26,171 bases of DNA. Source: a virus. Below the pieces are notes generated by a model. The model saw only the letters and a program-made list of their open reading frames with translations, ran no database searches and was not told the DNA's origin. Shown in pieces: positions 13,441 to 26,171 of this stretch (position 1 is the stretch's first letter; each line of letters begins with the position of its first letter). A program made the position numbers and the translations under genes. The stretch covers positions 1-26,171 of the IMG/VR virus record IMGVR_UViG_3300042261_001991, one strand, 5' to 3'.

Positions 13441-14028
13441 TCAATTTTTAGATTTGTTATATTCTTCGATGTATTTGTTTTGCTCGTCAAGTTCTTCTTT
13501 TGAACTCAGAAGTTCTTTCCTTGCTATTTCATTGAATTCAACTTGAACTGGAAAAGATTCAATCAGTTTTTTAATCAATTCTTCTCCGTTAATGGAAACC
13601 ATTTTCCCGTTCTCGGCAAATTGGTATCCGGAATTATTTGTTCTAACGGCATCAAAAGCAAGTTTTACGATTTGCTTCTGAGCAGGAACCAAGCGACCTG
13701 TTTGAGACTTGAAGTATTCATTAAACTTCATATCGTTGTTGTCCCTTTCGAGAAGTTCAAGCTTCTTTTGAAGTTCTTGAAATTCTTTTGAATCTTCAAA
13801 TTTTGGATTATCATTTTTGGTATTACCGTTAGTAGTGTCACCATTTGAAGCTTGATTTGAACTAACCTCTTGATTACCGTTCTGATTTGTGTTATCAGGT
13901 TGGGATGTTAGATACTTGTTTTTAAGAACTTCAAGCTGTGCAGCAGTCTGGTTTGCTATTTCTTCATTGAAAGTTTCATTTAACCACCCCAGTAAATCCT
14001 GAAATAGTTTTGTGTAGTTTTCTGGCAT
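13441..14028 (-). CDS. Nested in-frame scaffold protein (Mu gpZ-like)
   Basis: Inside the protease gene, an ATG at 14028 (residue 202 of the long form, MPENYTKLF) is preceded by AAGGAG with a five-base spacer, a much better ribosome site than the one for the long form. It would give a 195-aa protein made of the helical/Gln-Asn-rich scaffold part alone. Mu I and Z, and lambda C/Nu3, use the same nested arrangement to make excess scaffold. Sequence shows the start; use is inferred. Confidence 0.6.
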   Translation of the reverse strand: MPENYTKLFQDLLGWLNETFNEEIANQTAAQLEVLKNKYLTSQPDNTNQNGNQEVSSNQASNGDTTNGNTKNDNPKFEDSKEFQELQKKLELLERDNNDMKFNEYFKSQTGRLVPAQKQIVKLAFDAVRTNNSGYQFAENGKMVSINGEELIKKLIESFPVQVEFNEIARKELLSSKEELDEQNKYIEEYNKSKN

Positions 14029-14631
14029 ATTAGCTCCTTGAAAATTTATTAATTTTTGATTGGTGTCAGATTTGGTTTTTCCTCCTTCAAAATTTTCAGA
14101 TTTTGAGGAAGAAGAATAATATATATTTCTTTTCCTTTCCTTTCCTTTAATAGCATTGGTATCGCTTTGCGTTTGTAATGCGTTCGCATAAGAATCGGAT
14201 AACTTTGTTTCTGCATTCTTTTCAGAACCGAATGAAATGAACTGTTTTTCCCCACTGAATTCAGAATCTTTAAGACCTTTTACAGCAGGTGGAACTGCTC
14301 CCAGAAAGCCAACATGCCTTAACATCATGTCAGGGTAAAGAGCAATTGAAACTTTCTTATATCTGCCTTCTTTGATTAATTCTTCAAACTGCGGATCAAT
14401 TTGAGAGAATTTAGCTTCAATGGTGTCTCCATTCTTTTTGAGTTGTTCAACCCAAGCATAAGCAGGAGAATTGTTGACAGGGTGTCCAATCACAACTGGA
14501 GCGTCATGTCTTTCATCGGGAAGTTGATTATTATACTTCTCGATTATGGCGTTCAAGTCTTCTTCAGTCCACTCACGTTCATTTCCGTTGGCGTCTGTAT
14601 GTAATCCTGCTTTAAAAACTTCTTTCCACAT
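13441..14631 (-). CDS. Mu gpI-like prohead protease/scaffold
   Basis: The product is 396 aa. The N-terminal ~120 residues match the Mu I-protein family: HDAPVVIGHPVNNSPAYAWVEQL (42-64), EAKFSQIDPQFEELI, GRYKKVSIALYP (89-100) and the conserved FLGAVPPAVKGL (109-120). A low-complexity Ser/Lys linker (~125-195) leads to a helical, Asn/Gln-rich C-terminal part that would act as scaffold. The gene appears to contain a nested in-frame start (see 13441-14028), as in Mu I/Z. The ATG at 14631 has only a weak AAAGAAA upstream. It is the first gene of the minus-strand phage operon in this window. No portal or terminase gene lies immediately upstream, where such genes usually are. Confidence 0.8.
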   Translation of the reverse strand: MWKEVFKAGLHTDANGNEREWTEEDLNAIIEKYNNQLPDERHDAPVVIGHPVNNSPAYAWVEQLKKNGDTIEAKFSQIDPQFEELIKEGRYKKVSIALYPDMMLRHVGFLGAVPPAVKGLKDSEFSGEKQFISFGSEKNAETKLSDSYANALQTQSDTNAIKGKERKRNIYYSSSSKSENFEGGKTKSDTNQKLINFQGANMPENYTKLFQDLLGWLNETFNEEIANQTAAQLEVLKNKYLTSQPDNTNQNGNQEVSSNQASNGDTTNGNTKNDNPKFEDSKEFQELQKKLELLERDNNDMKFNEYFKSQTGRLVPAQKQIVKLAFDAVRTNNSGYQFAENGKMVSINGEELIKKLIESFPVQVEFNEIARKELLSSKEELDEQNKYIEEYNKSKN

Positions 14632-14651
14632 TTTCTTTATGTGTTTTGTTC

Positions 14652-14659
14652 AAAATTAT
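14652..14659 (-). promoter_or_regulatory. Possible Bacteroidota-type -7 element for the phage operon
   Basis: TAATTTTG on the minus strand matches the TAnnTTTG consensus and lies 20 bases upstream of the protease ATG at 14631. A TTTG further upstream is closer than the usual 17-23 bases, so the -33 element is not convincing. The 5' leader would be short. Confidence 0.3.
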
Positions 14660-14955
14660 CTTTCTACAAACGCAAACTTATTGAAAGCTACAATCTTGCT
14701 AAAAGCACTCAATAAAGGTATTAAATGTATTCATTAAATGTAGTGATCAATAACGATAATAATTTTTCTTAGATAGAAATTCTAAAATTGTAAAATGAAA
14801 AGCTTAAAACAGATATACTATCTTAATCACATATAATATTGATTATTAAAAATGTAAAAATGTGATCGATTTAAATGTATTTTTGTACAAATTAATAAAC
14901 TATTAAAGATATAAAAAATCTAAAATTTTTATTAATTATTTGTAAATAGCAGCAA

Positions 14956-14993
14956 AATAATATTTTTAAGTGTGTTGATTTTCAAATATTATT
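14956..14993 (-). terminator. Possible weak terminator after the lanthipeptide operon
   Basis: AATAATATTT (14956-14965) and AAATATTATT (14984-14993) form a perfect ten-pair stem with an 18-base loop just beyond the stop of the LanB elimination gene. The stem is AT only and the minus strand is followed by just four T, so termination may be weak and read-through into the phage operon is possible. Confidence 0.3.
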
Positions 14994-14998
14994 ATTTT

Positions 14999-15928
14999 TT
15001 AAACAAAAAAATCAAAATTGTTCTCTTTTAATTTATATTCTTCCTTTTTTAGTACTGAATAATAGTACCTCTCTAAAAAATCATATAACACCAATTCGTG
15101 AAACCGCTGATTTGATTTGAAAATGCGGTTGATTGACATATGTATAATACTTGATAAAAAATCATTAATTGAAATATCAAGTCTATTAGTTTTTTTTAAT
15201 TGCAAAATAAAATTTATATCCTCATTGATTCTTTCAGTCCTACCTTCCAATAAGGAGTAAAGTATTGTAAATTCATTTTCATGAAAATTATTAGAGAGTA
15301 ATGCTTCTATAGTTTTCTTGTTTTTTCTATATTTATCACTTAGTTGTTGCTTAACATTACTATTAATTTGAAATTCCTGACTAAATCCATTTCTCATATT
15401 CTTTGAAAAGTCAAATTTTTTTTTTGTATCTAATTTAAAATCATTTAAATAGCAATCAATTGACTTTAAACAGAATTGCCATCTAAAATTTTCACCATCG
15501 ATACCTTTAATTCTAGATAACATATTCAAAATCACTAAGCTATCTTGATAAAAAATAGACTCTGAAGAAACTATTGTATTTAATCCATATCTTTCTAACT
15601 CTCTTTCATAAGTATCAATTTGCACCTTCCAAATTATACCATCATTAAGTAATGGTTTGGTATAAGAAGAAACAAGTAGTATCAAATTTGAAAAATTATC
15701 TATAGAAGAAAGATGAAATCTAACACGTAAATGAAAATTAGGATCTTTGTATCTAATAAAGAACCACTTATCAATCCAATTACAACTAATTGCAATTTCA
15801 CTAATAGGTTTAATTATACTTTTAAGAAAATCATCGGCACTTTTCGTTCCTATGTAAAATTTATAATAAATCCATTCATCACCTATTATAAAAGTTCGTT
15901 CTAGATTTATATAATTAATTGATTGCAT
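14999..15928 (-). CDS. LanB elimination domain, stand-alone (thiopeptide-type/SpaB C-terminal)
   Basis: The product is 309 aa and matches the C-terminal domain of class I lanthipeptide dehydratases (PF14028). Motifs: EWIYYKFYIG (18-27), WFFIRYKDPNFHLRVRFH (55-72), DTYERELERYG (105-115) and SSIIHMSINRIF (259-270, with His263). It would remove glutamate from glutamylated Ser/Thr to form dehydroalanine/dehydrobutyrine. The DTYERE and HLRVR motifs hold the Arg/Glu residues expected for this step. Its start follows the LanB N-terminal protein stop after only two bases, with no Shine-Dalgarno, so the two are likely translated together. In most Firmicutes LanBs this domain is fused; the split is known from thiopeptides and seems common in Bacteroidota. 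Confidence 0.88.
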   Translation of the reverse strand: MQSINYINLERTFIIGDEWIYYKFYIGTKSADDFLKSIIKPISEIAISCNWIDKWFFIRYKDPNFHLRVRFHLSSIDNFSNLILLVSSYTKPLLNDGIIWKVQIDTYERELERYGLNTIVSSESIFYQDSLVILNMLSRIKGIDGENFRWQFCLKSIDCYLNDFKLDTKKKFDFSKNMRNGFSQEFQINSNVKQQLSDKYRKNKKTIEALLSNNFHENEFTILYSLLEGRTERINEDINFILQLKKTNRLDISINDFLSSIIHMSINRIFKSNQRFHELVLYDFLERYYYSVLKKEEYKLKENNFDFFV

Positions 15929-15930
15929 TA

Positions 15931-18153
15931 TTAAAAATTTTCATTTTTGTAAAAACATAATATAAATTCATTAGTAAATTTTCCTTCATTATTTTCTACA
16001 ACAAAACTATCACTTTCAAAAAGAAATTCTTCAAGTTTTATTATTGCTTTTTTTCTTATTAGTTTATTAAATAGATTTATATGAATTAATTCAGATAGGT
16101 TTAATAACAATAAATTATCACCTTCAACAAAATTTACTAATTTAGGTAACTTTTCTTTCTCACGCCAAGATTTAACGTCAGAAAGTAAAATTTCATTGTC
16201 TGTTTGATCAAAAATTTTAGAAATTTCTTTTGTGTTAAAAATCCATGTTGCTGGTGAAAGTATAATATTTTTATATGTTACTCTTGGTAAATAAGTGAAT
16301 ATATTTTCCAATGGTCCCCAACTGAATCCTAAACTGTTAAAACAGTTTTGATAACTTAAGTTACAAAGAAATTCGTAGATTGGTAAAGAATTATTTGAAT
16401 AGTTATGTGCATTCGTAAGTGTTGGGATTATTTCTTTATTTAATCTTTTGGATCTTAAAATTATTTTGTCATATTTTATTGAAATAACCAAATCATCAAT
16501 TTGAATTTGATTTTCATATGGCAAAGTTGACTTACAAAGGTATGGTATTTCATAATCTCTTAAATGTGGTCTAGTTAATATATTACCTGTTCTTGATTGT
16601 GGAAGATGAACTATTTCAGCTAGAATAACATTTTTATTGATTTCTTGTTCTTTCAAAGTAATTTCTTTTACAAGATTATTTATTTTTTCATTAGAATAAC
16701 AAAACCTTGATATTAATTTAGCAGCATAACTCATTATTCCTTTTAAATAAATCAAAGATTGATTATTAAAATTGTTTGACAATAAATTACCAAAAACAGA
16801 AAATGTTGATGGTAAATCCAATTTTAAATCATCTAATTCAGAAAAATCTTCATCATTGAATACTATTCCTCTGTTATTATTATTAATATTCTTTACATAA
16901 TATTTTAATAGAAATATTTGTATTTTATTAAATTTAATATCATCATTTAATCCTAAATTAATTAAAGGAATATCTTCAATTAGTGGATTTAAATCAATAT
17001 TATTTAGGTGATTTAAATTTATTCCTGATTCAGGATCTAGTGCCGCATATAAGGGAACTTCTTTATCACCAAATCTTTCCATAAAAACTTTTTTAAAATC
17101 TGAAAGAAATATATTATTGGTATAAACTGTTAATATTTTTAAAAAATCTATAGATTTTAAAATATTTTCGACTAAGTTTTTATCAATTTCACACACTTCA
17201 GAATCTTTATACATATCTACTTGAAATAAATTCTTTTCTAATAAGGGTATTTCTAAGCTTTTTATTAATTCACTTGTGGTTTCATATAATAAAATTGATC
17301 CACCAATCTTATTACTATTAATTACATCTAATTGTTTGTAAATGCTTTCAACCCTATATAACAATTCATTTTTTAAATTTGTATTTTTTAATATTGTAAA
17401 AAATATTTGATAAAATTCATCTCCAGTTACAGATGGTTCAAATTCGTTTAAAAGAATTTTATTCTCAATTAAACTATCTAGAAGATTATGTGATTCTTCA
17501 AATTCAAGTCCATTATAAGATAAGAATTCAATAATGTCGTTATAATAACAACCAAATCTTGTCATTTTTAATATACTATCAATAAAAATATTTGATTCAA
17601 AGGAAGTATTATTGTACTTTCTTAATTGATTTATATAATGATAATCATAATACCGATATTTTGTTGATAATTTAAATATTGAAGTATTTTTAAAATATTT
17701 TAAGTTTTTCTTAATTAATTCATTTTTTGATAAATTCTCAACAATATTACACAATAAATCCATATCTAATCTTAAATGCAGATTATTATATTCATTTTCC
17801 AATAACTTTATTACAGTGCTATTACTTATTTTACCTATAGTACAACCAGCAAATAATCCAAAAGGTGTGCATCTTGTAGACATTCTAATTAAATATTGCA
17901 TTAATGAAAATTTGAATTCATTTTTCTTTTTGGGATTAGTAATATTTTTTTCTAAATAAAATTTGCAAGTTTGATAAATTGAAGTTGATGCTATATATAA
18001 AGATTCTAAAACAAATTCACTCGATAAAATTTCATTTATTGAACTATCAAAATCTTTAAAAATATTGTCAATATTAAAATAAAAATCGATTGGCTTTAAA
18101 GGAGTTCGTAAAATAAAATGTTCAAAATATTTAAAGTTCTGATGTATTTTCAT
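15931..18153 (-). CDS. LanB glutamylation protein (lantibiotic dehydratase N-terminal)
   Basis: The product is 740 aa, the size of the glutamylation part of LanB (PF04738), without the elimination domain. Motifs in order: LRTPLKP (15-21), RMSTRCTPFGLFAG (90-103; Arg90, Arg94 and Thr96 correspond to the conserved NisB Arg/Thr set), HLRLDMDLL (126-134), FGDKEVPLYAALDPESG (361-377), RTGNILTRP (521-529) and LTNAHN (579-584). These are the residues of the glutamyl-tRNA-dependent activation of Ser/Thr. It follows the LanC stop by three bases with no ribosome site, implying coupling. Very AT-rich: 14 G/C in the 60 bases from 17401, against 21 in the 60 bases from 5701. No sign of truncation or frameshift. 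Confidence 0.9.
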   Translation of the reverse strand: MKIHQNFKYFEHFILRTPLKPIDFYFNIDNIFKDFDSSINEILSSEFVLESLYIASTSIYQTCKFYLEKNITNPKKKNEFKFSLMQYLIRMSTRCTPFGLFAGCTIGKISNSTVIKLLENEYNNLHLRLDMDLLCNIVENLSKNELIKKNLKYFKNTSIFKLSTKYRYYDYHYINQLRKYNNTSFESNIFIDSILKMTRFGCYYNDIIEFLSYNGLEFEESHNLLDSLIENKILLNEFEPSVTGDEFYQIFFTILKNTNLKNELLYRVESIYKQLDVINSNKIGGSILLYETTSELIKSLEIPLLEKNLFQVDMYKDSEVCEIDKNLVENILKSIDFLKILTVYTNNIFLSDFKKVFMERFGDKEVPLYAALDPESGINLNHLNNIDLNPLIEDIPLINLGLNDDIKFNKIQIFLLKYYVKNINNNNRGIVFNDEDFSELDDLKLDLPSTFSVFGNLLSNNFNNQSLIYLKGIMSYAAKLISRFCYSNEKINNLVKEITLKEQEINKNVILAEIVHLPQSRTGNILTRPHLRDYEIPYLCKSTLPYENQIQIDDLVISIKYDKIILRSKRLNKEIIPTLTNAHNYSNNSLPIYEFLCNLSYQNCFNSLGFSWGPLENIFTYLPRVTYKNIILSPATWIFNTKEISKIFDQTDNEILLSDVKSWREKEKLPKLVNFVEGDNLLLLNLSELIHINLFNKLIRKKAIIKLEEFLFESDSFVVENNEGKFTNEFILCFYKNENF

Positions 18154-18156
18154 AAA

Positions 18157-19374
18157 TTAACTAATTAACAAGCATTCATCCCAGTTTGGTTCAATTGAAG
18201 ATACTGAAGCTAGTAACACTAATCCAATTCCAGCTATACCCAATAATAAATTAGTCATTGGATGGTATCCACCTTCAACATTTGATAAAAAAGTTTTATA
18301 CCCTGCAAATCCATCTGCGAACGATGCCATTGATAAAGTTTCATTAATCCAAAATTCAGATGCAAACTTAAAATCGCTAATATTTGTATAATTATACATT
18401 CTATTAAAAATATGAGCTATACCTGCAGTTCCATGACAAATACCAGCATCAAAAACCGAATTAATTTTTAAATCTCTGCGTTTAGAAGAATGATATAAAA
18501 TATCAAGAGAGTGTTCAAACCAAATATTATTGTCAAGCGCTTTTGATGCAAAATAAAGAGCTAATCCGATACCAAGATCTCCATAACACCATGAAAGACG
18601 AGAAGATGCTGATATTTGTTGATCATTATTGATCCAATATGGAAATTTTGATAAGTTAGTTTCGGATTTATTTTCTTTAGATAATAGAAAGTTAATTGTT
18701 TTATTTAATAATTCTTCAATTAAATAATTCTCATTTATTTTGTGGAATATTTTTGATAAAAAAATAATAATACTTGGTAATCCATGAGCTAATCCAAAAT
18801 TTATAACTTCTTGTTTAGCTGAATAATTAAAAGATTGTAACGGAAAATATTTATTTCCATTAAATTGAGAATTATATAAATTACGAATAATTTCAGTTAA
18901 CAAATAATTTTCTCTTTTTAGTTGATTCCTTTTAAAAAAGTAAAGGCCATATCCTAATGTTCCATAAAGAAAATCATAATTATTTTTTTTATTTAATTCT
19001 TGAATTAAAACTGTAGAAAGAGTACTATCAAGATCATTAAAAAATGTATTTGTATCAATTTCTATGAGATTCTTTTCGTGTAAATGTGTAAATATCCAAC
19101 CTAATCCACACAACCCATCACTAAATGCTGTATTAGGAATATACTCGTTACAGTTAATTCTTTCTATTAAATTTGTTATTATATTAAAACCATGAAATAA
19201 ATGGGTAGTATTTTTAGAATGCAAATAGTAATAATAAAAAAACAAAGCAATACCTCCAAAACCAGACATTAATCCAAAATCCCTAGTGTCTGTTAAATGA
19301 ATCAAAATGCTTTTACTTATCTCTTCAATTTTAGCTTCGATATCTTTGTTATCAGTTAATTTTGTCCAACTCAT
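18157..19374 (-). CDS. lanC: LanC-type lanthionine cyclase
   Basis: The product is 405 aa, the usual LanC length. The zinc ligands are present: Cys263 in SWCYGDLGIG, Cys313 and His314 in ICHGTAGIAH. His197 in GLAHGLP matches the conserved active-site His. Repeated GL/GG motifs (SGFGGIALFF 37-46, DGLCGLGW 86-93, GTLGYGLYFF 138-147, LLGIAGIGLVLL 377-388) mark the alpha/alpha toroid. It would add Cys thiols to dehydrated residues to form lanthionine rings. A short AAAGAA is the only hint of a ribosome site. It lies between the S41 peptidase (24-base gap) and LanB. All expected catalytic residues are intact, so it should be active. Confidence 0.92.
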   Translation of the reverse strand: MSWTKLTDNKDIEAKIEEISKSILIHLTDTRDFGLMSGFGGIALFFYYYYLHSKNTTHLFHGFNIITNLIERINCNEYIPNTAFSDGLCGLGWIFTHLHEKNLIEIDTNTFFNDLDSTLSTVLIQELNKKNNYDFLYGTLGYGLYFFKRNQLKRENYLLTEIIRNLYNSQFNGNKYFPLQSFNYSAKQEVINFGLAHGLPSIIIFLSKIFHKINENYLIEELLNKTINFLLSKENKSETNLSKFPYWINNDQQISASSRLSWCYGDLGIGLALYFASKALDNNIWFEHSLDILYHSSKRRDLKINSVFDAGICHGTAGIAHIFNRMYNYTNISDFKFASEFWINETLSMASFADGFAGYKTFLSNVEGGYHPMTNLLLGIAGIGLVLLASVSSIEPNWDECLLIS

Positions 19375-19398
19375 AAATTAATTCTTTTTTACAAATAA

Positions 19399-21666
19399 TC
19401 ATTTAAGATATTCAATTGCCTTCTCAATAACTTCGTCACTTTCCTCAATAATTCCTTTAATAGTCCTTTGAACATTTATATCAGGTGTAATGCCATTAAT
19501 AAATAATTGACTGTCATCTTCATTTGTAATCTTCATTCCGGAAAAATTAAACATTAAATTTCCTAGTAATTTAATTTTTATAACATTTCCGTTTGCTCCA
19601 GCCGTTCTTTCACCTATAAATGTACCAATTTTATTTAATTTAAACAAAGAAGCTAAGGTTTCGCCATAACTAATAGTTCCATTGTCAATTAAAAAAACTT
19701 TCTTACAAGGCAAGTAATTTTCGTTTGGTATTATTTGCCATTTAACGTTTTTAAATTTTATATCGATTCTGTCTGGATAAATTATTTCTGGTATAAGCAT
19801 ATTGGGGCTACTTGTAGTTTTTTTTGTTAACTTTGATATGAATGGAAAAATATTATTTTTGGGGTACTTCCTTAAATCAACAATTAGTCCATTCGCATTT
19901 TTCAATTGGTCTAAATGTATATTAAAACTATCTAAGTTAAATGAAGATAAGTCTATATAAACATTATTTCCACTTAAAAATCTAATACCAGAATTATTTA
20001 TTAAATCATCTTTCCATAATTTATTTCTAAGCACTCTTGCTAGTTTAAAGTTCATTGAAGTATTATTTCTAATCACAGAAATTTGTATTGAATCTTCAGA
20101 GTTAGATTCACCGAAATAACCATAATTTAGATTCATCCATCTTTTCAATTGAGGTGAGCCACAAATAAATTTCTCTCTATCATTTAAGATGTTTATTGCT
20201 GGTACATTATCAATATGAGTTATAATATCGCCAAGTTTTATTGGAATTGGATCCAATATTTTATCACAAACAACTTGATTATTTACAAATGTCGATTTAA
20301 AAGGCAAAATTCTTTTTGGCATATTCCCTGGCATTAAAACGCTTATATGGCCATCTTTAAGTGGCTCTAACATTAATTTTAATTCAGTTATATAATCTGA
20401 AGTATTTTGAATGTTCTCTAAATTGATTAAAGTGGTTTTCAATTGAGTAGTCCAATCTAATTTAGTATATTCAAAATATGGGTAAAAATGCTGAATGATA
20501 TTCCAAACAATTATAATATTTGCGATTTGGACATTTCTTTGACTAATGAAATTTTTATTATAAACGGTTGTATCAAAATAAGAAATTGATAATTCATTAT
20601 TATCTAAATGAGGATCACGATAAATTGTAAGAGGTATTCTACATTTTAAATTAGAGATCAATTCTTTTTCAAAAAATTCGTTTGGCTTAGGATAAATATT
20701 AAATAATTCACCTGAATATGCATTTTCTAACTTAGATATTTCAAAAGATGATTTACCTTCAATTGGTTCATTTGTTTTTTGTTTTAAAGTATATGAATTT
20801 CCAATAATCTGCCAGTCTTTTGGAACTCCTTCAGAATCAAATTCTTCGAAATCGCCATTTGGTATAATTATGTTTGATAATTCCCCATTTTTAGATTCTA
20901 ATAATTTTAAATCATCTAATTCTATTTCGCCTTTACCATTAAATGTTATACCAATTGATAAGTAATCAGCAGAATCAGAAACAAACATTTTTATAGTAGA
21001 TTCTGTAAATCCATCTGTCCTGATTGCCTCTTCAGAATAAATAGATGAAAATGAAAAATTCTTTTTATAATTTGATGCTGAAATGCTAACAAAACTATTT
21101 GTATCAATAAACTTTGTTCTGATTTTTAATTTAAAAGTTAATTCTTTACCACGATAATTAGCTGCATTCAATATTCGAAAACAATTAAAATCGTTATTAT
21201 TGGAATCAGTACTTAAGTTTACTCTAACACTCTTAAAAACATCTTTATTAATTATACTATCATGAATACTTGCAAAACCTAAATATTGCCAAAAAACTGG
21301 TTTGGAATTATTTTCAGAATTAAATATATTCTTACTTTTTATTATATTATTATTCTGAAATATTTGAATATATGGAGCAATTGGGAAAAAAATATCTTGT
21401 AATTTCTTTTCTAAATCATTCAAACTATTAAGATTTTCAATTTCATTTAAATTTGTTATTAAAAGATTATTCCAATCTAAAGAATTAGCTTTATCTCCAG
21501 GATAGAAATACTTCACATAACCATATAGCTTGGCAAATGCTACTAAATTATCTATTTTTCTAGCCTCAATTTGAGCATAAACACTAGAAAAATTAAATAT
21601 AGTTATCAAATATACAATATTAATAAAAATACAAATTATATAAATCTTAAATTTCGTTTTCCTCAT
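19399..21666 (-). CDS. Secreted S41-family peptidase, candidate leader protease
   Basis: The product is 755 aa. A signal peptide (1-31, cleaved after VYA) is followed by the LVAFAKLYGYVKYFYPGDKA segment (41-60), typical of a Bacteroidota S41 group; the motif returns as VWNIIQHFYPYFEYTKLDW (387-405). Residues ~120-260 look like a beta-sandwich. A PDZ-like region (~451-545, with LGDIITHIDNVPA) precedes the peptidase core, where GTISYGE (663-669) holds the candidate nucleophile Ser666 and GERTAGANGNV (685-695) is the usual following loop. C-terminal-processing-type serine peptidases act in the periplasm or outside the cell. Located inside the lanthipeptide operon, it may remove the leader from the modified precursor or protect the producer. 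Either is inference; S41 enzymes also occur in many unrelated contexts. No Shine-Dalgarno is visible. Confidence 0.8.
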   Translation of the reverse strand: MRKTKFKIYIICIFINIVYLITIFNFSSVYAQIEARKIDNLVAFAKLYGYVKYFYPGDKANSLDWNNLLITNLNEIENLNSLNDLEKKLQDIFFPIAPYIQIFQNNNIIKSKNIFNSENNSKPVFWQYLGFASIHDSIINKDVFKSVRVNLSTDSNNNDFNCFRILNAANYRGKELTFKLKIRTKFIDTNSFVSISASNYKKNFSFSSIYSEEAIRTDGFTESTIKMFVSDSADYLSIGITFNGKGEIELDDLKLLESKNGELSNIIIPNGDFEEFDSEGVPKDWQIIGNSYTLKQKTNEPIEGKSSFEISKLENAYSGELFNIYPKPNEFFEKELISNLKCRIPLTIYRDPHLDNNELSISYFDTTVYNKNFISQRNVQIANIIIVWNIIQHFYPYFEYTKLDWTTQLKTTLINLENIQNTSDYITELKLMLEPLKDGHISVLMPGNMPKRILPFKSTFVNNQVVCDKILDPIPIKLGDIITHIDNVPAINILNDREKFICGSPQLKRWMNLNYGYFGESNSEDSIQISVIRNNTSMNFKLARVLRNKLWKDDLINNSGIRFLSGNNVYIDLSSFNLDSFNIHLDQLKNANGLIVDLRKYPKNNIFPFISKLTKKTTSSPNMLIPEIIYPDRIDIKFKNVKWQIIPNENYLPCKKVFLIDNGTISYGETLASLFKLNKIGTFIGERTAGANGNVIKIKLLGNLMFNFSGMKITNEDDSQLFINGITPDINVQRTIKGIIEESDEVIEKAIEYLK

Positions 21667-21754
21667 TTTAATTCTATGCCATTAAGATTATCAATATTTA
21701 ATAATAACTTAATTGTATTACGTATGTAATTATATCAAATTGTTTTAACATATA

Positions 21755-22594
21755 TTAACCAAACATTATACATGCACCTGGATCAGCTTTTGAACCACCT
21801 GTATCTGGTGGAAAGCACTTATCACCACAACTAACACATGAGAAGCAAGTATTATCTGGATTACAAGAATTTTGATTACAAGTTATTTTAATTGTACCAG
21901 TATTAGTTAGACTTAATAATGGTTTAGAATGTTGAGTAATTACTTCTTTGTTTAAATTTAAACTAGGTGATAAAATTAATGGTCTAATTAATTGCAGATT
22001 ATTACTAATTGGCAGAATTACTGTTCTCAAATCAAATATTGAAGTATTGTTAGAAGTATCATTTAATCTAATACCAATATGAACCTCACCAATGAAATTA
22101 CTAAATAAAGCCTTTAGTGTTTGAGCACCTGTCCAAGGTCCAGTACCAAAATCAATAACTTGAATTTTCTCATTAAAATTCCCATTAGTTCCTGCATTAT
22201 CTAAAATACTTATTTGAATTGAATTGTAATTTAAACCACCCAAATTAATTGGGATGTCTATTTCATATTTTAATTCTCCTGGGTTATTTCCATATACATA
22301 AATCAAGTTTTTTAAAGCAGGTGGTCCAGAAATATTAGCTGATTGTGTTTGAGCATTCATTGCATTAGCTAACATTCCTTCGTTTGGAAATTGTGCAGCA
22401 TTAACAGCAACAACAACTGGATTTGATGTAATAGTTAATGGTGAATTTACCCAGCTACTATTAGGTAAATTATAATTTGAACTTAATTTTACAATACCTG
22501 GAGTTACTCCAATCATTGAAAAGGCAATAATATCTGTAATTTGTGATGGAAGTGAATTAGCTAAATCCATCCAACCGCCTGAAAACTGTCCCAT
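21755..22594 (-). CDS. lanA: Putative lanthipeptide precursor with very large leader domain
   Basis: The product is 279 aa. Residues 1-238 contain no cysteine; all seven (239, 244, 250, 253, 256, 260, 275) lie in the last 41, in a region also rich in Ser/Thr (T238, S243, T249, S252, S255, T265, S268) and Gly, which is what a LanB/LanC substrate needs. The N-terminal ~200 residues look beta-rich and are paralogous to the protein encoded upstream (shared GW near the N-terminus, NAMN.QTQ at 77-84, PPALKNLIYVYGN, QISIL, GIR and ILP). No GG, FNLD-type or nitrile-hydratase-like leader is recognised, and typical leaders are far shorter. AGGAGAT lies six bases upstream of the ATG. It could instead be a Cys-rich structural protein, but operon position supports the precursor role. 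Confidence 0.72.
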   Translation of the reverse strand: MGQFSGGWMDLANSLPSQITDIIAFSMIGVTPGIVKLSSNYNLPNSSWVNSPLTITSNPVVVAVNAAQFPNEGMLANAMNAQTQSANISGPPALKNLIYVYGNNPGELKYEIDIPINLGGLNYNSIQISILDNAGTNGNFNEKIQVIDFGTGPWTGAQTLKALFSNFIGEVHIGIRLNDTSNNTSIFDLRTVILPISNNLQLIRPLILSPSLNLNKEVITQHSKPLLSLTNTGTIKITCNQNSCNPDNTCFSCVSCGDKCFPPDTGGSKADPGACIMFG

Positions 22595-22648
22595 TTTTCG
22601 ATCTCCTAAAATTTATTAATTTTTTTGGTTAAAACTATAATAATAATT

Positions 22649-23359
22649 TTATATTAAGATTATATTAGCTATATTTTTATTTAAGTAATTCATTATATTT
22701 AAAAAATTTATTTGATTATTTAATTCATTAAAATTATTTGGTAAAATACACATTCTTAAAACTAAAATTGAACTTTCTATTAAAGGAGGATGCGGTGGTA
22801 TTGAACTATCATAATCTATTCTTATACCAAGATTTACTGAACCATAATATCCAGATAAAATTAGTTTTAATGTAAAAGGACCGGAAGTGAATGGTGCATT
22901 TCCAAATTCAAAAACTTCAATATTGCCATTCTTATCACCAGTTGTTGCAATATTTTCTAAAATACTTATTTGAAGATTATTAATTATTCCAGATGTTGAA
23001 TTAAAAAAAATATCAAAACTGAATTTAAAATCATGAGGATCATTACCATAAGCAAATATTAAATTTCGCAAAGGAGGCGAAACCAATGATTGATTCATAT
23101 ATTGTGTTTGCATATTCATAGCATTTACAATCGTCACATCTTCATTATTTAAAAAATTGATGGGAATTGATTGAACTGTATTAAAACTTAGAGGTGAAGT
23201 ATTCCAAACACCATTTAAAGGAGTATTAAATGAAGGAGAATCAATTACATAACCATTCCTAATTACACTTCCTATGATAGAAGCGTAAGACAGAACTTCA
23301 GTTATAGGTATAGGTTCCTTTTTTATTAATCCTCTCCAACCTTGATTGAATCTAGCCAT
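22649..23359 (-). CDS. Core-less paralogue of the putative precursor
   Basis: The product is 236 aa and shares the domain of the 279-aa protein: F..GW..L near the start, W..SPL (~52), NAMN.QTQ, PPLRNLIFAYGNDP, LQISILEN, FG.AP.T, G..NLGIR and ILP. It stops where that protein's Cys-rich tail would begin and ends in an Asn/Ile-rich segment without Cys-rich sequence; the 54 bases after the stop hold no lost core in any frame. It is the first gene of the operon, with AAGGAA before its ATG. It may be a partner, decoy, immunity or assembly protein, or a precursor that lost its core. Family not recognised. Confidence 0.7.
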   Translation of the reverse strand: MARFNQGWRGLIKKEPIPITEVLSYASIIGSVIRNGYVIDSPSFNTPLNGVWNTSPLSFNTVQSIPINFLNNEDVTIVNAMNMQTQYMNQSLVSPPLRNLIFAYGNDPHDFKFSFDIFFNSTSGIINNLQISILENIATTGDKNGNIEVFEFGNAPFTSGPFTLKLILSGYYGSVNLGIRIDYDSSIPPHPPLIESSILVLRMCILPNNFNELNNQINFLNIMNYLNKNIANIILI

Positions 23360-23383
23360 TAATGTTTTCCTTAATAGTACATG

Positions 23384-23414
23384 CCAACATAATTATTGTA
23401 TTATCATAATTCAA
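23384..23414 (-). promoter_or_regulatory. Possible promoter for the lanthipeptide operon
   Basis: On the minus strand TTG (23414-23412), a 20-base spacer and TATGTTGG (23391-23384) match the Bacteroidota TTG-N17-23-TAnnTTTG form with one mismatch. The leader to the ATG at 23359 would be about 18 bases and holds AAGGAA. Confidence 0.3.
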
Positions 23415-23456
23415 TGAAACTTCAATAATTTATAATAGTATATGGATTTTTTTGGG

Positions 23457-23477
23457 AAAAAGGTGACACTTTTTTTT
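23457..23477 (+). terminator. Terminator-like hairpin in the divergent gap
   Basis: AAAAAG, a GTGACA loop and CTTTTT form a six-pair stem, with eight T in a row on the plus strand. No plus-strand gene ends before it. On the minus strand it would precede the lanthipeptide operon and could shield it from read-through. Confidence 0.3.
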
Positions 23478-23670
23478 AAAATAATTTTGTGTAAAGCATA
23501 AGTCCTTTAAAATATTAAATTTTATTGCATCTATGTTCTTATCTATAAGATTCATACTAAATTCCATGGTAACCTGTTTCAATACAACCACTGAATACAT
23601 GCAGATTGGAAGGTACTGAGTGCATTTACCAGAACTCAGGATTTGATTTGTTTTGCATTGTTTAAAATGC

Positions 23671-23713
23671 CAAAACAGTAAAAATTGATACTGAAATATG
23701 GCTGTTTTGATAC
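23671..23713. repeat. Operator-like repeats ahead of the methyltransferase
   Basis: CAAAACAG (23671-23678) and CTGTTTTG (23702-23709) are perfect inverted copies. TTGATAC occurs at 23685-23691 and 23707-23713, a 22-base step, about two helical turns. GCATT/AATGC at 23655-23670 is a further small palindrome. They lie 30-90 bases upstream of the ATG at 23743. Confidence 0.4.
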
Positions 23714-23742
23714 AAATTTGGTACTAATGTAAAGCTTGAATA

Positions 23743-24444
23743 ATGGAAAAAGTAACGTCAAAACAAATCTATAACAGATTAAGCAAGGTATATGACAGGA
23801 GCTATGATGAACCTGTTCATAAGATTGAAGATGATTATATTTATAAGTTTATATCAGATAAGGGATTTACAGAGGGAAAGATTCTTGATTTGGGGTGTGG
23901 GACTGGAACACTTTTAAAAAACATAGCAATATTACCTGAAAATTATATAGGATTAGATATAGCAGATAAAATGATAGGAATTTGTCAAGAAAAGTTTCCA
24001 AACAATGTTTTTATTATAGGAGATATGTCGAATATACCCAATAAGGAAGGCAGTTTTGATAATGTTATTTCATTGTTTGGAAGTTATTCTTATTCTAATG
24101 ATCATCATAAAACAACTGAGGAAATAAAGAGGGTTTTAAAACCTAAAGGTAAGTTCTTATTAATGGTTTGCGGAATTAAATATAAAAGCAGAAAATCTTA
24201 TATTCTGAATAAATTCAATATTGATTCTCCTGCAAGATTTTTCAAAAAAAAAGAATTGAAGCTGTTATTTAAGGATTTTGATAATGTTAAAATCTTTGGT
24301 ATGACAATGCTTAGTGAAGAACTTTCAAAGCATTTTCCTTTCTCAATTTCCAAAGCATACCATTTTGTTGAAACCAACATATTGGGTTCTATCATTCCTA
24401 ACAAATTCTATTTTTTAATTATAACTGGTAACAAACATGCCTAA
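23743..24444 (+). CDS. Class I SAM-dependent methyltransferase
   Basis: The product is 233 aa with the Rossmann-type methyltransferase motifs: KILDLGCGTGTLL (46-58, SAM-binding motif I), IGLDIADKMIG (69-79), FIIGDMSNIP (90-99) and the later region EEIKRVLKPKGKFLL (126-140). N-terminal YNRLSKVYDRSYDEP resembles the UbiE/small-molecule family. Substrate is unknown. It is read away from the lanthipeptide operon but is AT-rich and lies next to it, so it could be a tailoring enzyme for the peptide or unrelated cargo. Its stop overlaps the start of the PP-loop gene by 8 bases, which suggests co-transcription with the phage-type genes instead. No Shine-Dalgarno is visible. Confidence 0.75.
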   Translation: MEKVTSKQIYNRLSKVYDRSYDEPVHKIEDDYIYKFISDKGFTEGKILDLGCGTGTLLKNIAILPENYIGLDIADKMIGICQEKFPNNVFIIGDMSNIPNKEGSFDNVISLFGSYSYSNDHHKTTEEIKRVLKPKGKFLLMVCGIKYKSRKSYILNKFNIDSPARFFKKKELKLLFKDFDNVKIFGMTMLSEELSKHFPFSISKAYHFVETNILGSIIPNKFYFLIITGNKHA

Positions 24445-25582
24445 GCACTATTGTATTGAAAACGTTTTTGATGCCGCTCTCGACCGAATGATAAAGCTAT
24501 ATCAGGAAGGACACAGGGTAATAGTTTCCTTTTCTGCTGGTAAAGATTCAGGAATATGCCTTGAACTTTGCATTATTGCGGCTACAATGACTGGTAGATT
24601 GCCAGTAGAAGTAGTAATGAGAGATGAAGAAATTATGTATCCTGGTACGTTCGAGTATGCCGAGAGAATGGCTAACAGACCGGAAGTTAAGTTTTACTGG
24701 TTCTATGCTAATCAACCTGTGGTTAATATCTTTAACCGTCAAAATCCTTATTTCTGGGTTTTCGATCCTTTGCTTTCTACTGATAAATGGGTTCGTACTC
24801 CTCCTGATTTTGCAGTAAAAATACATGAACAGAATATTCATGGACTTATTAGCGAAGAGAAATTTCCACCTGCTAAAGGTAAAGATTTAATTGCTGTTTT
24901 AGGACTTCGCACTGATGAATCCATGCTTAGAAAAATGGGTTTGATGTCGAGCAAGGGATATTTAACCAAAGGTAAAAACAGTTATGGAACTTTCTATGCA
25001 AGACCTATTTATGATTGGTCTGATGGGGATGTTTGGAAGGCAGTTAGGGACAACCACTGGGACTATAACAAAGCTTATGATGTAATGCACAGATTAGGAG
25101 TTCATAGAAACAAGCTAAGGATTGCTCCACCAACTTTAGCTCCTGCCGCTATTGACGGTCTTATGGTTGCTTCAAGAGCATGGCCTCAATGGTTTGATAA
25201 AGTTTGCGAAAGACTGTCTGGAGTTAGAACAGCTGGTATGTTCGGAAGAAGGTCAGTCGAACCTATACGAAAACTTGGAGAATCATGGAAGGAATGTTTT
25301 TACAGAACTTGTATTGAAGAAGCTCCCGATTGGATAGCCGACAGAGCTCAAAAGGTTGTTAATTATGTGATTCGCAGTCATTCAAGGCATTCCACCGAAG
25401 AATTTCCAGAAGTAACAAAATGTCCGAAATGCCAAATGCTTTCTTCTTGGAGAAATCTTTCAAAAATCATGTATATGGGAGAACCATTCTCTATGAAAGT
25501 AAAAGTGGATGTGCTACCTTATGTTGAACCTGAATTTTTCAGGGATGGAGCAGGAACTTGGGGAGGAAAACCTACTTGGTAA
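24437..25582 (+). CDS. PAPS-reductase-like PP-loop protein (DUF3440/IbrA-like)
   Basis: The product is 381 aa. The PP-loop SFSAGKDSG (31-39), VVMRDEEIMYPGT (59-71), GLRTDES (156-162) and the ARPIYDWSDGDVW segment (188-200) mark a PAPS-reductase/adenylyl-sulfate-binding family protein, of a kind often carried by phages. A Cys pair in the C-terminal third (CPKC, 329-332) may bind zinc, and the family may act on DNA or tRNA thiolation or sulfate-like chemistry. Its start overlaps the upstream gene. In phages such genes often lie beside ParB-like or DNA methyltransferase genes, which is the case here. More GC-rich than the lanthipeptide genes (27 of 60 from 25021), fitting the phage backbone. Confidence 0.75.
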   Translation: MPKHYCIENVFDAALDRMIKLYQEGHRVIVSFSAGKDSGICLELCIIAATMTGRLPVEVVMRDEEIMYPGTFEYAERMANRPEVKFYWFYANQPVVNIFNRQNPYFWVFDPLLSTDKWVRTPPDFAVKIHEQNIHGLISEEKFPPAKGKDLIAVLGLRTDESMLRKMGLMSSKGYLTKGKNSYGTFYARPIYDWSDGDVWKAVRDNHWDYNKAYDVMHRLGVHRNKLRIAPPTLAPAAIDGLMVASRAWPQWFDKVCERLSGVRTAGMFGRRSVEPIRKLGESWKECFYRTCIEEAPDWIADRAQKVVNYVIRSHSRHSTEEFPEVTKCPKCQMLSSWRNLSKIMYMGEPFSMKVKVDVLPYVEPEFFRDGAGTWGGKPTW

Positions 25583-25632
25583 TTTTTTTAAAAATATTAC
25601 AATGCATTATTATCTGTAACGTCTTGAAATGT

Positions 25633-25920
25633 ATGGATTTAAACAATTTCATAGAATTTATTGCAAGCCAGAAATGGATATTCGCAAAGACTTATTCCGA
25701 GAAAGCACCTCATGAATATTGTCTAAAGAAAAACTGCGCTGATATTGAAGTTTTCAATGAAGCTGTTCAATTTATCCGTGATAATGGAGTCAAAGAATTC
25801 TTCTTCAAAAAATCATTCATATATTTCTATCAAGACGGTTACAAGTACTGGACTATGGGAGCTCCCATTCCGGCTACAATTCTAATTAACCGAACAAATG
25901 ATATGAAAAAATATGAGTGA
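25633..25920 (+). CDS. Small conserved hypothetical protein
   Basis: The product is 95 aa from ATG 25633. An earlier in-frame ATG at 25558 would overlap the PP-loop gene by 25 bases and adds a hydrophobic stretch that looks like non-coding read-through. The KWIFAKTYSEKAPHEY segment and the GYKYWTMG and ILINR pattern near the end recall a small protein family that I associate with phage DNA-methyltransferase loci, but I cannot name it. It sits between the PP-loop and the DNA methyltransferase genes, so it may assist DNA modification. No clear ribosome site. Confidence 0.5.
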   Translation: MDLNNFIEFIASQKWIFAKTYSEKAPHEYCLKKNCADIEVFNEAVQFIRDNGVKEFFFKKSFIYFYQDGYKYWTMGAPIPATILINRTNDMKKYE

Positions 25921-25925
25921 TATGA

Positions 25926-26171
25926 ATGAAAACATTTGAAGAAGGAAAATGGCTCTATGGTGATTCCTGGGAGAGATTTCCCATTAATGATGGCGAAGTC
26001 TGGCAAGCAGGAAAAAACATCATAGCGGTCAAGGATTTGACAAATTTAACCCAATTAGATTTCTTTGGTATTCCTCAATTCGATATGTCTTATGTCGATC
26101 CGCCATGGAATACCGGAAACATCAATTCATTTTATACCAAAGCTGGATTTTCTGAAAAGAAAGAATTTGAT
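25926..26171 (+). CDS. DNA methyltransferase, N-terminal part (runs off right edge)
   Basis: 82 codons are visible from ATG 25926 and remain open at the edge. The sequence MSYVDPPWNTGN (residues 54-65) holds the DPPW catalytic motif of N6-adenine/N4-cytosine DNA methyltransferases, followed by INSFYTKAG as in phage-type enzymes. An overlapping ATG at 25922 soon meets a stop, so it is not used. Whether it modifies phage DNA against restriction is inference. Confidence 0.72.
   Translation, partial: MKTFEEGKWLYGDSWERFPINDGEVWQAGKNIIAVKDLTNLTQLDFFGIPQFDMSYVDPPWNTGNINSFYTKAGFSEKKEFD

Follow-up and report, generated by a model that had tools for sequence, protein, structure and literature searches.

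The motif LxLxKx5L marks the leaders of some class I lanthipeptide precursors from Bacteroidota (NCBIfam NF038153; Walker et al., PMC7268733), and a LanB split over two polypeptides has been reported in pinensin and other clusters (PMC7268733). Proteusins combine a rigid folded domain that is dispensable for binding with a flexible leader-like motif (PMC10858898). Fusions of mCherry to NisA and to clausin were modified in Escherichia coli, and LanB/LanC thus tolerate a leader that is preceded by a folded protein (PMC10413542); C-terminal fusions to pIII have been modified by lanthipeptide enzymes in M13 phage display (PMC5686179). The carriage of a RiPP antimicrobial cluster by a temperate phage is exemplified by sublancin and prophage SPbeta (PMC6391423). 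The gene described here, P, belongs as a LanBC substrate to an already known kind of system. For a natural, phage-borne carrier fusion with an unrelated domain of about 200 residues, no description was found in the openly accessible papers searched.

The window, that is, the whole stretch of 26,171 nucleotides that was analyzed, is an IMG/VR virus record (IMGVR_UViG_3300042261_001991) that encodes a major head protein, a head-maturation protease, an endolysin and other phage genes. A block of lan genes lies between the genes for the head-maturation protease and a methyltransferase. This block is phage cargo, and the placement of the cluster inside a phage genome had been overlooked in the preliminary description of P. 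The features of the block are collected in Table 1.

Table 1. Features of the lan insert, with positions in the window.
Feature	Position	Strand	Details
Whole lan insert, 8.8 kb	14743..23577		19-27% GC in a phage genome of ~35% GC
LanB elimination part, stand-alone	14999..15928	(-)	PF14028 E 5.5e-67 (1-255/255); TIGR03891 E 3.5e-64
LanB glutamylation part, split dehydratase	15931..18153	(-)	PF04738 E 2.8e-118, profile 3-648/649
LanC cyclase	18157..19374	(-)	PF05147 E 8.7e-45, profile 4-350/350
S41-family peptidase, candidate processing enzyme	19399..21666	(-)	PF03572 E 2.7e-13
Fused precursor P	21755..22594	(-)	279 aa
Core, P residues 234-279	21758..21895	(-)	TIKITCNQNSCNPDNTCFSCVSCGDKCFPPDTGGSKADPGACIMFG; start resembles short precursor cores (..SCNQNSCN..)
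Class I lanthipeptide leader, P residues ~203-233	21896..21988	(-)	LNLNKEVI; His at K+6, no GG
N-domain, P residues 1-~202	21989..22594	(-)	Uncharacterised ~200-aa family; A1/A3 profile matches
Paralogue Q	22649..23359	(-)	236 aa; same N-domain; upstream of P; LNK then stop

The reading frame of P opens with an ATG, a few bases downstream of a GGAG. Its seven Cys residues (239, 244, 250, 253, 256, 260 and 275) all fall within the last 41 of the 279 residues (chance probability 9e-7) and leave residues 1-238 free of Cys, as had been pointed out at the outset. Ser or Thr directly precedes five of the seven (p = 0.002), and the core, the last 46-47 residues, contains eight Ser/Thr in all. The preliminary description had read this arrangement as a folded leader of some 235 residues, of a novel type, fused to a seven-Cys core. 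A large N-terminal domain of unfamiliar kind and a seven-Cys core are indeed present, but the single long leader does not hold: the leader comprises residues ~203-233, and residues 1-~202 form a separate domain whose family occurs free-standing, without lan genes.

Residues 200-279 were used as a query against 22,976 open reading frames from LanB loci, and the 20 best matches were all short class I precursors (57-85 aa) with the leader motif, the best at an E-value of 0.0016; shuffled tails searched against the same frames gave 0-4 matches at E<=1. Regions as short as these yield modest E-values, and since the loci were picked for holding LanB, the finding that tail homologues are confined to LanB loci is partly circular. 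A search of 395 genomes of the phylum, unselected for LanB, placed tail matches at one lan locus (genome G096) and returned one borderline match (0.00996) outside a lan locus, in G246, with stops inside. The A1 profile also matched the short precursors of G096 that adjoin lanC/lanB (E 3e-6 in locus L119). In the alignment the short precursors, from their initiator Met (MKKIQLNKGLSLNKEAITKLQEDQLSNVKGG) to the GG site, correspond to P residues 203-233 (IRPLILSPSLNLNKEVITQHSKPLLSLTNTG), and the alignment extends into the core (SCNQNSCN versus TCNQNSCN). The LxLxK motif upstream of the core was also picked out by a leader HMM, with the stretch SLNLNKEVIT (P 211-220) scoring 9.2 bits, above all 5,000 shuffles and highest among the reading frames of the window.

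The P leader departs from the short leaders in two respects. At K+6 it has His222 rather than the Leu of 89 out of 96 short leaders, and it ends in TG (232-233), whereas GG is present in 88 of the 96. Because of these it is degenerate and could be decaying. The NF038153 model gave no match to it at E<=10; in the 395 phylum genomes the same model matched 48 times, in frames of 37-107 aa and one of 155 aa, which makes a fusion of 279 aa exceptional. Judged by sequence, residues ~203-279 nonetheless make up an entire class I lanthipeptide precursor of a fairly standard Bacteroidota type, its leader being somewhat degenerate. P resembles the LxLxKx5L precursors in the position of the motif, the length of the leader, the start of the core, the Cys-rich core itself and the LanB/LanC context, and differs from them, besides the two leader positions, in its length and in the extra domain of ~202 residues. 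Alternatively, the tail might bind metal or form disulfides rather than be a lanthipeptide core, as seven Cys in 37 residues, the CxxCxxC spacing at 250-256 and the MxCxC start common among free-standing N-domains would allow, but LanB and LanC adjoin P, the leader motif stands at the proper distance from the core and the best tail homologues are all lan precursors, so that this is very improbable. P is very probably a substrate of LanB/LanC.

Residues 1-~202, the N-domain, belong to an uncharacterised family. Relatives were found in 6 of the 395 phylum genomes with a two-sequence profile made from P and Q, and in 26 of 294 genomes of one class, some with ten matches; all six genomes of the phylum sample recur in the one-class sample, and within the samples searched the family is restricted to that class. 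Flagellar genes lie near N-domain loci, which suggests that the class is a flagellated lineage outside Bacteroidia. The nearest free-standing members are 38-46% identical to P. Nearly all of the 54 family matches, at 49 loci, stop at the equivalent of P residue ~195 and are tail-less. No LanB or LanC was seen near the N-domain genes of these 49 loci, no N-domain in 87 LanB loci and no LanB in the 294 genomes of the class, with LanB detected in 3 of 3 control genomes known to hold it. The MxCxC start was noted among the free-standing proteins of loci L110-L118 and L158-L197, with up to ten matches per genome. At one of these loci (L180, 2592-3407) the N-domain carries another tail, 66 residues long, Ser/Thr-rich and free of Cys; the gene that follows encodes a TPR protein with a transglutaminase-like-looking N-terminus.

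Profile searches of the N-domain in Pfam, PHROGs and the PDB gave no convincing match, and the NHLP and Nif11 leader models did not match P in Pfam and NCBIfam scans. Matches to Ika8 and Ika4 (E 1e-9 and 7e-6) were set aside, since they cover a stretch of only ~30 residues and no single stretch passes, and chain repeats seem to add up to these values. The earlier remark that the leader matches none recognized is accordingly true of residues 1-~202 and untrue of residues 203-233, with their LxLxK motif. No relative of the N-domain appeared among viral contigs in single-protein and A1/A4 searches, the A3 profile lacking any stretch of sufficient conservation for such a search, and tblastn of P against phages and plasmids gave chance matches only. 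Structural models were obtained with AlphaFold from two sequences (mean pLDDT 37 and 44); the better one places a helix at ~70-86 and strands at 97-195. Insofar as models of such low confidence can be read, the N-domain is probably β-rich, which lends weak support to that part of the preliminary description. Foldseek searches with these poor models returned weak matches that were mostly Ig-like, with the RRE fold absent among the 50 matches listed. In its layout of a folded N-terminal region followed by a leader-like motif and core, P recalls the proteusins (PMC10858898). Proteusins (NHLP) and Nif11 precursors differ in that their leaders, which often reach 80-90 aa or more, do not match the N-domain in sequence; the proteusin of solved structure is mostly helical.

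The free-standing N-domains, together with the match of the tail to whole short precursors, rule out a leader of 235 residues of novel type. A separate short precursor made from an internal start was likewise rejected: no ATG, GTG or TTG occurs between P residues 190 and 235, and the only start-like codon across residues 150-236 is a TTG at 189. We regard P as probably a natural carrier-lanthipeptide fusion, carried as phage cargo and modified by LanB/LanC while attached to its folded carrier. A complete class I precursor, with a leader of 31 residues and a core of 46, would have been appended, in the same reading frame, to the C-terminal end of the ~200-residue domain. No second fusion of N-domain, leader and core was found, and the P fusion is known as one copy.

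The S41 peptidase, LanC, the LanB glutamylation part and then the elimination part are encoded downstream of P. The split LanB (740 + 309 aa) resembles that of pinensin-type clusters in dividing glutamylation and elimination between two polypeptides; in the text consulted, no folded carrier is described for those clusters (PMC7268733), and the P cluster differs further in being phage-borne. LanC retains all of its zinc/active-site motifs (GLAHG, WCYG and CHG). Both LanB parts, the LanC zinc ligands and a C-terminal core with Ser/Thr and Cys, as a class I system requires, are thus present. The proposed sequence of events is that LanB would bind the embedded LxLxK leader of P, the split LanB would dehydrate Ser/Thr of the core and LanC would close thioether rings with Cys, all in the cytoplasm and with the carrier folded. 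The N-domain may be dispensable for recognition and may instead set the destination or the binding partner of the product. In these respects P would be like the mCherry and M13 pIII fusions, in which a folded protein, leader and core are modified in the cytoplasm, except that those are man-made.

No transporter or exporter, PCAT or immunity gene was found within the window. Since there is neither a GG site nor a peptidase-transporter, the product might have one of several fates: it might stay on its carrier, be freed by host lysis or by lysis that the phage triggers, or be cleaved, either by the S41 peptidase or by a protease of the host. The S41 enzyme starts with a hydrophobic, signal-peptide-like stretch, contains a GTISYGE at the usual position of the catalytic Ser, and could on these grounds act after export or lysis.

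A core-less paralogue sharing the N-terminal region had been reported and was confirmed as Q, which shares 38% identity with P across 210 aa and has no Cys tail. In Q an LNK occurs 19 residues past the domain-ending ILP, exactly as in P, and the protein then ends; by itself this motif is not significant, but its P-like spacing indicates that Q probably lost its core. The simplest reading of the two sequences is that Q is probably a duplicate that was made after the fusion and then lost its core. This loss also bears on whether the cluster is a decaying remnant, in which a chance fusion arose when the lan genes were acquired, the leader is eroding and little or nothing is made. The absent GG and the His at K+6 of P, the lack of an exporter within the window and the absence of the insert from relatives fit such decay. 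Against this, all reading frames are intact over 9 kb of AT-rich DNA, the LanB, LanC and PF14028 domains are complete, and the seven Cys are kept, five of them after Ser/Thr. Decay is thus considered unlikely.

Related phages define the insertion. In L009 the two flanks of the insert (window 13453-14742 and 23578-25000) align at 85% and are separated by 26 bp, which represents a clean empty site, and the neighbouring PAPS-reductase-like protein is 98% identical to that of the window. The lan block is also absent from L007, from L010 and from the prophages L206 and L207. Sequence L005 is 100% identical to the window through the left junction, up to position 14818. An assembly chimera was ruled out by the single lineage of the flanks and by this identity past the left junction; no independent copy covers the right junction. 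No convincing terminal repeats or transposase that would explain the insertion were found, and no LanB was detected in viral contigs with the A2 profile. Two genomes from the class in which the N-domain is found harbour prophages with a capsid protein 80% identical to that of the phage. Given this capsid match and the absence of LanB from the 294 genomes of the class, the fusion appears to join a domain from the likely host class to a lan system not seen in that class. Beyond the insert, the window (24437-26171) contains a PAPS-reductase-like gene, a gene of 120 aa and a further reading frame; these are conserved in relatives that still have the adjacent methyltransferase, and PHROGs assigns the PAPS-reductase-like gene to the moron/auxiliary category.

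In L011 (1-2001) an N6-methylase/Eco57I-type gene adjoins the head-maturation protease at the same phage site in place of the lan block, which indicates that the site takes cargo. A use as a bacteriocin for lysogens may be envisaged, as with prophage-borne sublancin (PMC6391423), which is likewise a phage-carried RiPP but is a glycocin and has a Gram-positive host. The carrier fusion could also work inside the lysogen against competing phages, so that export would be unneeded. Intracellular anti-phage lanthipeptides have been reported in Streptomyces (PMC12360287), and the L011 gene at the same protease and the lack of a transporter in the window agree with such a use, but Streptomyces is a distant host and the S41 peptidase looks exported; we consider this use rather doubtful.

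The surroundings of the N-domain genes elsewhere suggest what the carrier might do. An N-domain gene, a partner without a signal-like N-terminus and a protein with one follow each other in 33 of the 42 loci with room for this order, as compared with about 9 expected from a background of 30%, signal peptides being judged by hydropathy alone. The middle partners vary widely (galactose-oxidase-like, PQQ-propeller and unknown). A tentative possibility, compatible with the carrier fusion and specifying the role of its carrier, is that the N-domain is a delivery module and that in P the payload is the fused lanthipeptide. The phage order Q, P, S41 peptidase would then place the peptidase, with its signal-like N-terminus, as the signal-peptide gene. 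Secretion machinery was, however, not identified, the N-domain has no signal peptide of its own, and the link of partners to secretion is putative. A more far-reaching reading, in which the N-domain family would serve one Bacteroidota class as a hitherto unrecognised module for delivery or docking, usually partnered by variable proteins without a signal peptide, and the phage would have loaded it with an enzymatically modified lanthipeptide as a carrier-borne warhead, is rather improbable.

If modified as proposed, P would be a natural class I lanthipeptide in which recognition, by a short leader, is separated from the carriage of cargo, by a folded domain, and thus a natural counterpart of the engineered mCherry or pIII fusions. 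The phage carries a complete LanBC set as cargo, and its prophage relatives belong to a class without LanB in the 294-genome sample. The locus also draws attention to a domain family, so far uncharacterised, whose genes stand first in a conserved order of three. Genome mining that expects short precursors, or that requires GG or an NF038153 leader, would miss genes like P. Separately, in L096 (6692-9639), from a Bacteroidales MAG, ten short class I precursors lie in tandem adjoining LanB, which contrasts with the reported absence of LanB from surveyed Bacteroidales genomes (PMC10352776).
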